In this document: positions 2,145-18,912 of the stretch, piece after piece
How positions within the stretch are numbered: position 1 is the stretch's first letter
Layout: each line of letters opens with the position of its first letter
Assembly (NCBI GenBank): GCA_002938035.1
Contig: PTLH01000011.1
Span: 1-33,849 of the forward strand
Length of the DNA stretch: 33,849 nucleotides
Direction: 5' to 3'
Source: Alphaproteobacteria bacterium MarineAlpha3_Bin6
GTDB taxonomy: Bacteria; Pseudomonadota; Alphaproteobacteria; Rhodospirillales; UBA2165
The notes under the pieces: generated by a model
What the model was told of the DNA's origin: nothing
The model's input: only the letters and a program-made list of their open reading frames with translations
The model's database searches: none
Position numbers and translations under genes: made by a program

Positions 2145-2462
2145 TTAGCCTGACTTACTGCCACCCAGACATTTGGGAGATGGCATTATTTTCTCCCCTT
2201 TATTGTCCCACTCCTCGGCAGTTAGAGCTTGAATTGATAAAGCGTGGATCTCTCCCGCGAGTTCATCCGCAAGTATCTGGTTTACTCTTTGGTGCCGTTG
2301 CAGCAACCTTTGCCCTGTAAATTCATCAGAAATTATTACTACTTTAAAATGCGATTCGGAACCCGGTGGCACATTGTGCATGTAGCTTTCATTTATAACT
2401 TCCAATCCAAGTACGGGGATGGCGTCAACAATCTTCTCCTCAATCTTAGTTTGTACAGACAT
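2145..2462 (-). CDS. bolA: BolA family protein
   Basis: This 105-aa protein matches BolA closely: a central ESYMHNVPPGSESHFKVVI, then a helix with LLQRHQRVNQIL, then IHALSIQALTAEEW and a C-terminal SPKCLGG tail. BolA proteins have a KH-like fold, bind monothiol glutaredoxins through a shared [2Fe-2S] cluster, and act in iron-sulfur and redox homeostasis; some also affect transcription. The conserved His of the RH motif and the C-terminal Cys are present. It is divergently arranged with the selenoprotein candidate at 2601, sharing a 138-base intergenic region, so the two redox-linked genes may share control. Confidence 0.93.
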   Translation of the reverse strand: MSVQTKIEEKIVDAIPVLGLEVINESYMHNVPPGSESHFKVVIISDEFTGQRLLQRHQRVNQILADELAGEIHALSIQALTAEEWDNKGEKIMPSPKCLGGSKSG

Positions 2463-2586
2463 CTTTTCTATTCCCCAATGACTAAATTCGGTACAAATAC
2501 AATCTAACAGGCAAACTCCCCCTCGCCAATATTCTATGCTACCAAGAACTTAATTTTCGCCTTAAAACACACTGCTAACCTAGAAA

Positions 2587-2592
2587 AAGGAG
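2587..2592 (+). promoter_or_regulatory. Strong ribosome binding site fixing the start of the selenoprotein gene
   Basis: AAGGAG lies 8 nt before ATG 2601. It is the main evidence that translation starts at 2601, upstream of the in-frame TGA, and not at the ATG at 2754, which has no comparable site. Confidence 0.8.
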
Positions 2593-2600
2593 TAAAAAAT

Positions 2601-3242
2601 ATGACTGATCAGATTAAGTTGGAAGTTTTTAGCGACTACGTTTGACCTTGGTGTTACCTCAGTACCGGGCGTATTGAAAAAATCAAAGAAGAATATTCGG
2701 TTAAAGTTGACCTAATACACTTTCCCCTGCACCCCGAAACACCAGATGACGGGATGTCGCTAGAGGAACTTTTTGCCGGCCGTAATATAGACATAGACGC
2801 AATGTATACTCGTATGAAGGGTTTAATGGATGCAGAAGGACTTGAATACGGCAAACGGACCCATACCTATAATAGCCGATTAGCCCAAGAATTGGGCAAA
2901 TGGGCGGATGAACAAAGCAGACGTGGAAACAACTACAATGCAATTCATGATGCCCTTTATAGGGGCTATTTTGTTGATGGCCGAAATATTGGGGATGAGG
3001 ACACTCTTGTTGACATCGCAACCAATATAGGATTACCCAAAGATGAGGTTAAAGCGGTCCTTGCTGACCGCTCGCATAAAAATGCTGTCGATGCCGACTG
3101 GGCAAAATCTAGGGAATATGGCGTTACCGGTGTCCCTACGTTTGTAGCGGGAGGATACAGTCTTGTGGGCGCGCAACCCTACGAAATGCTCCAACAAATG
3201 ATGGATCAAATAAAAACCTCTGCAACGGAAAGCTCGCCTTAG
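2601..3242 (+). CDS. DsbA/FrnE-family thioredoxin-fold selenoprotein (Sec at residue 15, UGA 2643-2645)
   Basis: Reading from ATG 2601 through an in-frame TGA gives a 213-aa protein starting MTDQIKLEVFSDYV-U-PWCYL. The TGA sits exactly where the FrnE/2-hydroxychromene-2-carboxylate isomerase-like DsbA family has the first Cys of its D-x-V-C-P-W-C-Y motif, giving a UPWC redox site (Sec15, Cys18). Downstream come the helical insert and the cis-proline loop GVTGVPTF (residues 174-181), so the fold is complete at normal family length. A strong Shine-Dalgarno precedes the ATG and a SECIS-like hairpin follows the TGA. The family catalyses cytoplasmic thiol-disulfide exchange; no signal peptide is seen. 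A conventional caller would report only 2754-3242 and lose the active site. The alternative is a pseudogene with a Cys-to-stop mutation, which the hairpin and intact remainder argue against. Confidence 0.85.
2659..2677 (+). promoter_or_regulatory. Candidate bacterial SECIS stem-loop
   Basis: The mRNA here can form a 7-bp stem (2659-2665 with 2671-2677, one G-U pair) closed by the 5-nt loop CGGGC (2666-2670). The loop begins 20 nt after the UGA and has G as its second base. Known bacterial SECIS elements lie inside the coding region just downstream of the UGA, with a small apical loop carrying a G in its first two positions, which is what SelB recognises. An alternative weaker stem starting right after the UGA (2647-2654 with 2662-2669, rich in G-U pairs) is possible. 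Confidence 0.65.
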
Positions 3243-3312
3243 GTAACACTTTTTGTCACTAGAATGACGAATTATAGTTAACTTGGCCAGTCCGACCCTT
3301 GCTTCGGCTTAT

Positions 3313-4452
3313 TTAATCTTCAGACACGGCCCAAGTCTTAAAGTATTCCGGCACTTCTACGGCTTTAGCAGCATCAGTCATTGTAAGTGGTAATTCCACA
3401 TCTATATTCAATGCCGTTACTTCAGATCGAGCATCTTTTTGCCAATTTTTTCGAGATGCTTCACGAACACCCGGCTCTGGTCCGTGATGCAATCCCGCCG
3501 GGTTAAGGCTGATAGATCCCGTAGCGGCACCCTTTCCCCCTTCCGTTCTGGACATTGTAAATTGACCATCATGAATAAAAAATACCTCATCAAAATCAAT
3601 GTTCCTGTGCCCCCAAGGTACCCTCTCTACATTTGGGTTTCCCTCGAGGCTGCGAGGTCGGAATGTACACACATATAAGCCTTTTGCAGTAAAGGTAGAA
3701 TGGACACTAGGAGGCAAATGCATGCCTTCGCTCATCAGATTACTAATATCGCGGACATTGAGCTTTAACACTGTAAGAGACCCAGCCCATCCCACAACAT
3801 CCATTGGGCAGAAAGGGTAAAACACAGATGTAAACCGATCGCATTTCTTGATTTTTAGCTCCCATTCGCCTTGATCGCTTTCATAAACCGGATCGGGTTC
3901 AGGGGTCTCGAGTTTTGAGTAGTCAAATGGTGCATGTTGGCCAATAACGCCGCGATCGGGAAAGCTGATCGCATACCGTGATTCAACAATGATGGAAAAA
4001 TTTTCATTTGTATCATAGACAAATCGATAGTTTGTTCCCTTAGGAACGAGGATATAATCCCCAACCTCGAAGGACATCGCACCAAAGTCTGATTCGAAAC
4101 GCCCTCCTCCTTTATGTATAAAGTGCAATTCATCACCGTCGGCGTTGCGAAAGAAAAACGGCATCGACTCACGGCGGCGGGAAATGGAAAGAGAGATGTC
4201 TTCGTTATATAACAACTTTACGGGGCTACCATGCGGGTCGTTCATATCTTCTGGAATTAAATCGTAACTTTGGATTGAGTGAGGCTGTAGCGGCCCCTCT
4301 ATCCTAGTCCAGTTGGTGTTAGGATTTAGGCGATAAAACTGTACTTGATCTCCAAAGAACCCGTCTCTACCAAGTTCCTCCTCGTAGGTCCCTTCAGGTA
4401 AATTTGCATGGGCTTGTCGTGAATGAATCCCCTTAGCATAATTGAATCTCAT
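3313..4452 (-). CDS. Homogentisate 1,2-dioxygenase-like protein
   Basis: This 379-aa double-cupin protein resembles homogentisate 1,2-dioxygenase (HmgA), which opens the ring of homogentisate with Fe(II). Matching pieces include FYPFCPMDVVGWAG, the HRN motif with a nearby acidic residue (His282, Asp288/Glu289) and the late HHGPEPG motif (His322/323); in HmgA these supply the iron ligands. It is shorter than true HmgA (about 430-450 aa) and the spacing between His282 and the acidic ligand is off by one if Glu289 is used, so the substrate may differ. The start is ATG with a purine-rich GGGGAG site. No fumarylacetoacetase or maleylacetoacetate isomerase is nearby, which argues against the classical tyrosine pathway. 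It leads, at the 3' end, a run of four minus-strand genes. Confidence 0.8.
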   Translation of the reverse strand: MRFNYAKGIHSRQAHANLPEGTYEEELGRDGFFGDQVQFYRLNPNTNWTRIEGPLQPHSIQSYDLIPEDMNDPHGSPVKLLYNEDISLSISRRRESMPFFFRNADGDELHFIHKGGGRFESDFGAMSFEVGDYILVPKGTNYRFVYDTNENFSIIVESRYAISFPDRGVIGQHAPFDYSKLETPEPDPVYESDQGEWELKIKKCDRFTSVFYPFCPMDVVGWAGSLTVLKLNVRDISNLMSEGMHLPPSVHSTFTAKGLYVCTFRPRSLEGNPNVERVPWGHRNIDFDEVFFIHDGQFTMSRTEGGKGAATGSISLNPAGLHHGPEPGVREASRKNWQKDARSEVTALNIDVELPLTMTDAAKAVEVPEYFKTWAVSED

Positions 4453-4724: not shown

Positions 4725-6011
4725 TTACTGTTCCATCCACTTAACCACACCTGCAACACCGTCAACAGCAACTTGGGTTCCATCAGGAATGTTCTGAGTT
4801 GCGTCTAATACGCCCAAGACCATCGGGATACCCCTTTCCCGTGCAAGAGAAGCAAGATGAGAAGTGCTGCCACCCAATTCTGTCACGACGGCGGAGACCA
4901 TAGGCAGAACCTGGCTTAAAGAAGGCCCTGCAACTTGAGTTACTAACACATCCCCTGGAGCAACCCGACTGAGTTCACATTCACAATTGATGACGCAGGC
5001 ACGGCCAGAACCCCAACCAATTCCAGCAGGGTGACCGCGAAGGCCCGGATGATTAGCCCAGTTCTCGTCAGAAATTGTCGTATCTTCCATCTGTAATGGC
5101 CGAACCTGAAGTATCTTAAAGCCTATCTCATCTCTGGCCCATTCAATTTCGGCAGGCATACCAATCATCGTTTCCGCCTGTTTAAGATACCCGCTGAGTT
5201 CTATTACCTGTTCATCACTCAAACATCTCAATTTTGCCATTTCCTTGGAAACTAATGCTGAAGGTGTTGCGTCATGGAGATGGCAGCCAATTTTGTGAGT
5301 TTTTCGCCCCGTATCGACGCTAGTGATGGTACCATTCACATCCAGTCCATAGCGGTCGGGAACGATTTCGCCTTGAGCGATCGCCTCCCCTAGACCCCAG
5401 GTGGCACTCAAAATCATACCGCCCTCAGCAGTTTGGCTTAGGCCCCCACCAGACGAGACTGCATCAATCAACGGCTGTATTAACAATGCCATGGCGGTGT
5501 CTGAGGGATCAATGGCGTGGGTCCCCATGTAACGAAGGGCTCTGACAGACCAGAGTGCGGCCCAGCAGGCCCGCACTGCTGTCATAAATTCTTTCTCATC
5601 TGCTAACCCCAGGAAGCTCTCAAACTGACCCGCGAAGCTGGACCCTTCACGGTCCTCTACTAATGCAGATGAGCGAACCACCAACGGAGCATTGGTGCGG
5701 CCCAACAGATCTGCACGAGCCTCAAGCAAAGGTTCCAAAATCTCAGACGCGATGGGTTTGTCAAAGAGCCCCATTCTTATTTCGTTGACAATGAGGCGTG
5801 CCTCGCGGTTATCCGCATTTGGCAGTTTTTCTATCACTTTCTTCAAGTTATTTGTTTCCAGCTGTACACGGTATGCTTCCGAACTTAGACAAAAGCCATC
5901 CGGGATTGGCAGACCAGCATGGCCTAACGCCGCTTGGTTAGCGGCTTTTGGTCCATAGACTTCAGCATTCGCAGCTTCCAGTGAACTTAACGGGACAACG
6001 AGTAGAACCAT
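4725..6011 (-). CDS. PEP-synthase-like dikinase: ATP-grasp plus phosphohistidine swivel domain
   Basis: Residues 1-310 form a PPDK-type ATP-grasp domain (VVRSSALVEDREGSSFAGQF at 111-130; IEWARDE and LQVRPL near 289-306). Residues about 335-425 form a phosphohistidine swivel domain with catalytic His385 in GGSTSHLASLARERGIP. The C-terminal PEP/pyruvate TIM barrel of PpsA/PpdK is absent, and there is no large middle acceptor domain as in rifampin phosphotransferase. Such proteins transfer the beta-phosphate of ATP via the His to an acceptor held by another domain or protein; the acceptor here is unknown. It sits between an aromatic-dioxygenase-like gene and an M24 gene, 112 bases after the latter. 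Just past the stop, the +1 frame stays open for about 17 codons to a TAG, a possible frameshifted tail. Confidence 0.8.
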   Translation of the reverse strand: MVLLVVPLSSLEAANAEVYGPKAANQAALGHAGLPIPDGFCLSSEAYRVQLETNNLKKVIEKLPNADNREARLIVNEIRMGLFDKPIASEILEPLLEARADLLGRTNAPLVVRSSALVEDREGSSFAGQFESFLGLADEKEFMTAVRACWAALWSVRALRYMGTHAIDPSDTAMALLIQPLIDAVSSGGGLSQTAEGGMILSATWGLGEAIAQGEIVPDRYGLDVNGTITSVDTGRKTHKIGCHLHDATPSALVSKEMAKLRCLSDEQVIELSGYLKQAETMIGMPAEIEWARDEIGFKILQVRPLQMEDTTISDENWANHPGLRGHPAGIGWGSGRACVINCECELSRVAPGDVLVTQVAGPSLSQVLPMVSAVVTELGGSTSHLASLARERGIPMVLGVLDATQNIPDGTQVAVDGVAGVVKWMEQ

Positions 6012-17779: not shown

Positions 17780-18778
17780 TTAAACCGATACCAAGTATTG
17801 AATGCTAAATAGCTTGTTTTGGTCGGTCCAAGTTTTCCTAACTGTAAAACCGTTATTTTCTGCTATTTTTGAGAATTCTTTAAGTGAATATTTATAAGAA
17901 TTCTCGGTATGAATGGTTTCATCCGGTAAAAATTCAAATGTTGATCCCTCAAAAGTAATAGTCTGAGCTCGTTTAGATACGAGGTGCATTTCTACACGGC
18001 TTTGTTGCTCGTTAAAAAAAGCTAAATGGTAGAAAGAACCAACATCAACTTCCGCCTTTAACTCGTTTTTCATCCGCTTAAGAAGGTTAAGGTTAAATGC
18101 TGCAGTAAATCCCTCCGCATCATCATAAGCTCTATTCAAAATATTTTTATCTTTCTTGAGATCCACTCCTATCAGGATACTGCCGTTCGCCCCAAGAAGA
18201 TTACGCACTCGCCCCAAAAACTGACCAGCCTCCCCTGGCGTTTGGTTGCCGATCGTGGATCCAGGAAAAAACAACAAGGGTGCCTTACCTGTAACACCAA
18301 ACTCTTTTGGTAAATCCACAATTTCCATGAAATCGGCACAAAGCGCACCAACTTTTACTGCAGGAAATGTTTTTGCAACGCTCTTAGCCGTTTGGATTAA
18401 ATGCTCGTGAGAAATATCAATCGCGAGATATTCTGCGGGCTCATGAAGGGCACTAAGTAAGGCATTAATCTTAAGGCTAGACCCACAACCATATTCCATT
18501 ACATTGCTCGCAGTACCTATTAAAGCTGAGATTTCCGTTCCATTATTGTTTAGAAGAGCAATCTCAGTTCTTGTCACATAATATTCTGGCGTTTCGCAGA
18601 TTTTGTTAAATAGGTAAGAGCCCGTTTCATCATAAAAAAACTTTGGGGGGATTGACTTGGGTGATTGTGAAAGTCCAGAGATTACCTCCGCCAAAAAGTC
18701 TGATTGCTCTGGTATTTGGTCAACAAAATAAGCTAAACCGTCAGGCACTGCATTAGTAGTTTTGGAAAGTAGGTTCAT
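17780..18778 (-). CDS. egtD: L-histidine N(alpha)-methyltransferase (ergothioneine pathway)
   Basis: EgtD trimethylates histidine to hercynine using three SAM, the first step of ergothioneine synthesis. The diagnostic N-terminal block PPKFFYDETGSYLFNKIC followed by ETPEYYVTRTE is present, then the SAM site VMEYGCGSSLKINAL, LLFFPGSTIGN, the ILIGVDLKKD segment and the C-terminal YKYSLKEF. Length (332 aa) is that of the family. Start ATG 18778 or GTG 18790; neither has a strong ribosome site. The partner egtB is not adjacent: upstream is an EamA transporter 134 bases away on the same strand. Confidence 0.94.
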   Translation of the reverse strand: MNLLSKTTNAVPDGLAYFVDQIPEQSDFLAEVISGLSQSPKSIPPKFFYDETGSYLFNKICETPEYYVTRTEIALLNNNGTEISALIGTASNVMEYGCGSSLKINALLSALHEPAEYLAIDISHEHLIQTAKSVAKTFPAVKVGALCADFMEIVDLPKEFGVTGKAPLLFFPGSTIGNQTPGEAGQFLGRVRNLLGANGSILIGVDLKKDKNILNRAYDDAEGFTAAFNLNLLKRMKNELKAEVDVGSFYHLAFFNEQQSRVEMHLVSKRAQTITFEGSTFEFLPDETIHTENSYKYSLKEFSKIAENNGFTVRKTWTDQNKLFSIQYLVSV

Positions 18779-18912
18779 AAAACAATTCACCGTATTGTAT
18801 ATTGGCGATGCTCCCGATCAAGGAGAAGGGAATGGGCAAAATCTTATCTTTCAAGGCGCCTTCTGGCAGTATTGCCATATATTCAATCACCCACCATGCA
18901 AACCAAAATACC

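Follow-up and report, generated by a model that had tools for sequence, protein, structure and literature searches.

A predicted FrnE-type DsbA-family selenoprotein with a Sec-Pro-Trp-Cys active site and its SECIS element in a Rhodospirillales genome

The window, meaning the whole stretch of 33,849 nucleotides that was analyzed, harbors on its plus strand at 2601–3242 a gene for a FrnE-type member of the DsbA family, which appears to be a selenoprotein. The reading frame starts at ATG 2601, 8 nt downstream of the Shine-Dalgarno sequence AGGAG (2588–2592, plus strand), passes an in-frame TGA at 2643–2645 and ends with the stop codon TAG at 3240–3242. Direct translation with the TGA read as U yields a product of 213 amino acids, MTDQIKLEVFSDYV-U-PWCYLS...TGVPTFVAGG..., with one selenocysteine (Sec) at residue 15. 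Here, the TGA replaces the catalytic first cysteine in DYV-U-PWC-Y and would be decoded as the first position of a UPWC redox motif. The resolving cysteine of this motif, Cys18 (2652–2654, plus strand), is invariant in the alignment of homologues and is the only cysteine of the protein, so that the redox pair would be Sec15-Cys18. The cis-Pro loop GVPTF (residues 177–181; 3129–3143, plus strand) is present as well, and its V178 and P179 are likewise invariant. A first-pass annotation of this DNA had described a strong Shine-Dalgarno sequence with an ATG and an in-frame TGA on the first cysteine of the redox motif; the AGGAG before ATG 2601 confirms the former, and the frame together with the homologue alignment the latter.

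A standard ORF caller applied to the window returns 2754–3242 (plus strand) alone. This truncated ORF of 162 amino acids has lost the first 51 residues and with them strand 1 and the active site, exactly as had been anticipated for an automatic call from 2754. A Shine-Dalgarno sequence comparable to AGGAG was sought 5′ of ATG 2754 and none was found. Automatic annotation misses the true start of the selenoprotein gene, and standard gene callers drop the active site of Sec-FrnE genes.

The Pfam family DSBA (PF01323) matches residues 7–200 of the read-through product with 121.2 bits against a gathering threshold of 25.6 (E 6e-35). In the AlphaFold2 model (pLDDT 94.4, pTM 0.89), residue 15 lies just before helix 16–31. 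The best PDB matches found by Foldseek are five entries of FrnE from Deinococcus radiodurans (DR_0659; PDB 5cnw, 5co3, 5coh, 5cp1, and 5xwh) with TM scores of 0.87–0.89 and rmsd values of 1.8–2.1, followed by SCO1869 from Streptomyces coelicolor, and the sequence matches agree with this ranking. SCO1869 (PDB 3gl5), the top PDB match on sequence level (E 1.2e-23), has the same fold but is a Cys form. D. radiodurans FrnE is approximately 30% identical to the window protein and shares the fold, the CPWC-type active site, the cis-Pro loop and the lack of a signal peptide. In contrast, it carries Cys in place of Sec and contains a C-terminal CX4C motif, which was sought in the window protein and not found, as no Cys follows residue 18. 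This CX4C has been proposed to regenerate the active site of the Deinococcus enzyme; FrnE proteins without CX4C exist, so that its absence does not exclude membership (PMC8945050). The assignment to the FrnE subfamily is based on the nearest relatives in sequence and fold, which are FrnE or near kin, on the CPWC-type motif and on the absence of a signal peptide.

For D. radiodurans FrnE, disulfide reductase/isomerase activity in the cytoplasm and a link to the tolerance of oxidative stress have been described (PMC8945050). By analogy, the window protein likely reduces or isomerizes disulfides in the cytosol by means of a selenolate nucleophile; its redox direction and substrate are derived from homology at approximately 30% identity. 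A different main reaction of the Sec protein, either of the GST-kappa/HCCA-isomerase type on a small molecule or as a YjbH-like adaptor, would fit the more distant fold matches, which include GST kappa, 2-hydroxychromene-2-carboxylate isomerase and YjbH, and also the origin of the name FrnE in a polyketide cluster (PMC8945050). Nevertheless, D. radiodurans FrnE is much closer (E 2e-15 vs. 1e-8), UxxC and the cis-Pro are retained, and the retention of Sec implies a redox-active residue, which makes such a reaction unlikely.

Homologues of this disulfide reductase/isomerase candidate were collected from 100 related genomes and from a scan of 84,980 species genomes, the latter adding 80 named loci that are labelled mostly as Rhodospirillales/Alphaproteobacteria and in some cases as Acidobacteriota, Betaproteobacteria or Gammaproteobacteria. 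At the Sec column, the 103 homologous loci have TGA (48), TGT (29) or TGC (26) and no other codon, with one further homologous locus that does not cover this codon standing outside this number. These counts are loci and not independent events, since some contigs were apparently entered twice (e.g., L027 and L056); collapsing identical stretches reduced them to 42 distinct sequences with TGA and 44 with Cys. Within the 100 related genomes, most close homologues keep the TGA and the others have TGC or TGT. Thus, both a cysteine at the TGA column of the FrnE/DsbA alignment (55 loci) and close relatives keeping the TGA (48 loci), which had been suggested as checks, were found.

The TGA loci are 52–73% identical to the window protein, which is conserved on either side of the TGA throughout the 48 loci. 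Furthermore, the downstream sequence is intact in these relatives, and the decay after the TGA that had been considered as a counter-argument is not seen. Within the 10 codons before the TGA, the differences between the TGA loci and the window are more often synonymous (181) than non-synonymous (136), which indicates that the upstream stretch evolves as protein. The occurrence of the TGA at exactly the same codon in 48 loci from many assemblies excludes chance.

Directly downstream, starting 13 nt after the UGA, a hairpin is present at 2659–2677 (plus strand; TCAGTAC-CGGGC-GTATTGA in the window). It consists of a 7-bp stem (2659–2665/2671–2677, UCAGUAC/GUAUUGA) and an apical loop of 5 nt (2666–2670, CGGGC). 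In the TGA loci, codons 5–11 after the TGA are nearly frozen including their synonymous sites and read mostly CTC-AGY-ACS-GKN-CGT-RTT-GAA. Here, Leu is encoded by CTC and Arg by CGT in 98% of the TGA loci each, whereas the Cys loci use six codons for this Leu and five for this Arg. This synonymous freeze is confined to the TGA loci and to the hairpin stretch.

Among the 42 distinct TGA sequences, 99.0% of the cells in the stem are paired. Nine of these cells are compensatory. At columns 21/31, U-A is replaced by C-G in eight sequences from about three groups, and one sequence has U-A instead of A-U at columns 19/33. The covariation score was reached by none of 500 shuffles, which ignore the relatedness of the sequences. 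Two controls are less exposed to relatedness than this shuffle test: sliding the partners lowered the pairing to 25–44%, and in the Cys homologues the same hairpin is paired to 52.4%, which is not above shuffles. RNAalifold recovers the same helix unprompted. The folding energy of the hairpin in the single sequence is unexceptional (z −0.15) and uninformative, so that the evidence for the hairpin is the alignment. A scan of window positions 2500–3300 against Rfam gave no match; bacterial SECIS elements are variable. Judged from this covariation, the hairpin 3′ of the UGA is a bacterial SECIS element, and it adds a covarying SECIS of Sec-FrnE to a known selenoprotein family. On the protein level, LSTxR(I/V)E is found at this position in the Sec forms and LGDxRVK in most Cys forms, and the hairpin within the coding sequence appears to dictate the residues LSTxR(I/V)E.

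If the TGA were a true stop, the locus would be a pseudogene or would encode the 162-amino-acid protein from ATG 2754. The output of the ORF callers and the absence of selA and selB from the genome bin would fit to this. Against it stand the flanks of the TGA, conserved on both sides in 48 loci, the covarying hairpin restricted to TGA homologues, and the short ORF itself, which would have to do without a Shine-Dalgarno sequence, strand 1 and the active-site motif. A true stop is therefore regarded as very improbable. That a sequencing or assembly error turned TGC or TGT into TGA, conceivable for a single MAG contig, has a negligible probability, since independent assemblies at 52–73% identity have the TGA and the hairpin alike.

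For the decoding of UGA as Sec, the genome bin (2.2 Mb, 179 contigs, 89% complete) was searched for selA, selB, selC, and selD, as had been proposed. Here, the outcome was divided: a tRNA-Sec (anticodon TCA, 79.4 bits) and selD were found, whereas the 89%-complete bin yielded neither selA nor selB. The selD gene (L023/L148, G000:C92:11689-12618, minus strand) carries a Sec codon of its own: an in-frame TGA encodes the U of its active site GGG-U-GCK and precedes a perfect 7-bp hairpin, UAGCACC-GUC-GGUGCUA. As a separate observation, a SelW-like gene (Rdx, PF10262; L149, G000:C65:153-365, minus strand) has an in-frame TGA in C-A-E-U and, judged from its sequence, is the third selenoprotein gene of the genome.

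In the relative G009, a distance of 2–3 kb separates the tRNA-Sec from an enoyl-CoA hydratase gene, and selB and selA are located approximately 7–10 kb upstream. A similar enoyl-CoA hydratase gene adjoins the tRNA-Sec in the genome of the window (contig C43), where approximately 150 nt of sequence remain upstream before the contig breaks off. Because this break lies on the side where G009 has selAB, and the bin is 89% complete, we infer that SelA and SelB exist in this strain and that their genes were most likely lost to an assembly gap. A tRNA-Sec nested in selB has been reported for other Alphaproteobacteria (PMC8124441). This arrangement was rejected for contig C43, where stops lie close upstream in three frames across the tRNA, and for G009, where selB is about 7 kb off.

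The distribution across genomes is in line with Sec decoding. A strong tRNA-Sec (65 bits or more) or SelA was found in 16 of 18 TGA genomes, including that of the window, vs. one of six Cys genomes (Fisher p 0.0027, uncorrected for kinship). SelA is found in most TGA relatives. SelB parallels this pattern among the genomes tested: of eight TGA relatives examined for it, five have a complete SelB and a sixth has it in pieces. One exception, G052, combines the Sec machinery with a Cys FrnE, which is allowed since Sec use is decided per gene. Furthermore, G006 and G021 have the TGA form, yet no match to SelA, SelB or a strong tRNA-Sec was found in their bins, both of which are less than 90% complete.

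Reassignment of UGA to tryptophan occurs in some reduced alphaproteobacteria. For this genome, reassignment or general readthrough has a vanishingly small probability: TGA ends six of the 27 window ORFs, TGG is used 106 times, the tRNA-Trp has the anticodon CCA, which together make the recoding local, and the homologues have Cys and never Trp at the column in question.

Taken together, we consider it highly probable that the gene encodes a cytoplasmic Sec-Pro-Trp-Cys oxidoreductase of the FrnE subfamily with SECIS-directed insertion of Sec15 and a presumed function as reductase/isomerase; the gene, the UGA position, the SECIS, the tRNA-Sec with selD and the fold have their basis in comparison. 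The initial idea of a FrnE/DsbA-like selenoprotein with a UPWC active site is thereby strongly supported on sequence level. Mechanistically, SelB in complex with Sec-tRNA-Sec would recognize the SECIS hairpin 13 nt past the UGA and insert Sec at residue 15. The selenolate of Sec15, which sits where helix 1 begins and points towards the cis-Pro179 loop, would then attack a substrate disulfide, and the resulting mixed selenosulfide would be resolved by Cys18. Since the C-terminal CX4C pair of Deinococcus FrnE is absent here, the Sec15-Cys18 bond would be re-reduced by glutathione or thioredoxin, and a Sec15-Cys18 pair reduced in this way is the most likely mechanism, for which we infer reaction direction, reductant and substrate.

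On a quickly built, unrooted tree of 81 proteins, the Sec/Cys label has to change twice, vs. 25 times with shuffled labels. Here, the Sec rows and three Cys rows (L092, L111, and L068) group together, surrounded by Cys forms. This fits one origin of Sec with later reversion to Cys, a direction that is presumed given the lack of a root, and amounts to about one Cys/Sec switch in the clade. An apparent recent Sec-to-Cys reversion is seen in L041/L092, from a MAG labelled Caenispirillum bisanense. This locus has TGT and a SECIS-like remnant, TCAATACCGGGCGCATCGA, in which five of seven pairs are kept. Its genome (G002) gave no match to SelA, SelB or a strong tRNA-Sec, a pattern that loss of the Sec system would predict. 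The rows labelled Acidobacteriota, Betaproteobacteria and Gammaproteobacteria fall inside the Sec group of the same tree, so that, with the MAG labels taken as given, a transfer of Sec-FrnE between phyla is likely. The Acidobacteriota-labelled MAGs L073, L082, L084, and L100 have the Sec form, the same SECIS and a common DFV-U motif. Tentatively, and with more doubt than confidence, it may be proposed that UPWC Sec-FrnE is a separate and hitherto undescribed lineage within the DsbA-like selenoproteins, which arose once from a Rhodospirillales-type Cys-FrnE and spread with its SECIS to Acidobacteriota as well as Beta- and Gammaproteobacteria, the SECIS-forced LSTxR(I/V)E partly outlasting reversion.

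The selenoprotein family itself is not new. COG2761 is the FrnE/DsbA-like group. DsbA-like UxxC selenoproteins of COG2761 were first reported in 2005 with nine Sargasso Sea sequences and their SECIS (Zhang et al., PMC1088965), were known from 41 organisms by 2016 (PMC5029168) and are listed in reviews of 2022 and 2026 (PMC9312934; PMC13188914), the latter with the entry "DsbA-like protein form 1," PF01323. This published family shares PF01323, UxxC with Sec for the first Cys, and a SECIS directly downstream. Judged by PF01323 and the UxxC motif, as defined in PMC1088965 and PMC13188914, the window protein belongs to this family, whose published members include AACY01178397 and NIP15863.1. The Rcas_1661/DsbG-like (seleno)lipoprotein family (NF041057) also comprises thioredoxin-fold proteins with UxxC members; it was rejected, as the match scores 52.5 bits where 190 are required, covers the C-terminal half only and the family is of the lipoprotein type.

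New here are the covarying SECIS, the history of the clade and the missed gene start. This predicted selenoprotein family, on which no enzymology was found, gains well-supported members. Together with the apparent Sec-to-Cys reversions, the matched homologues of the Sec and the Cys type represent a natural test of what a cytosolic disulfide enzyme gains from selenium and, likewise, of how an RNA element within the coding region shapes the protein.

In the neighborhood, a BolA gene (window 2145–2462, minus strand) and the selenoprotein gene are arranged divergently, and BolA is also located close to the homologous gene in the nearest relatives (L027/L056 and L028). Around the genes of the nearest relatives only BolA recurs, with GntR in one, which gives no functional hint. 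Further along the window, the minus strand encodes at 4725–6011 a stand-alone protein of 428 amino acids with PEP-synthase ATP-binding and phosphohistidine domains and no PEP/pyruvate-binding C-terminal domain. EgtD, the histidine methyltransferase of ergothioneine biosynthesis, is encoded at 17780–18790 (minus strand; TIGR03438 above cut-off). The product of 3313–4452 (minus strand) resembles homogentisate 1,2-dioxygenase with 57 bits against the hmgA cut-off of 511 and is, on this score, probably a dioxygenase other than hmgA.
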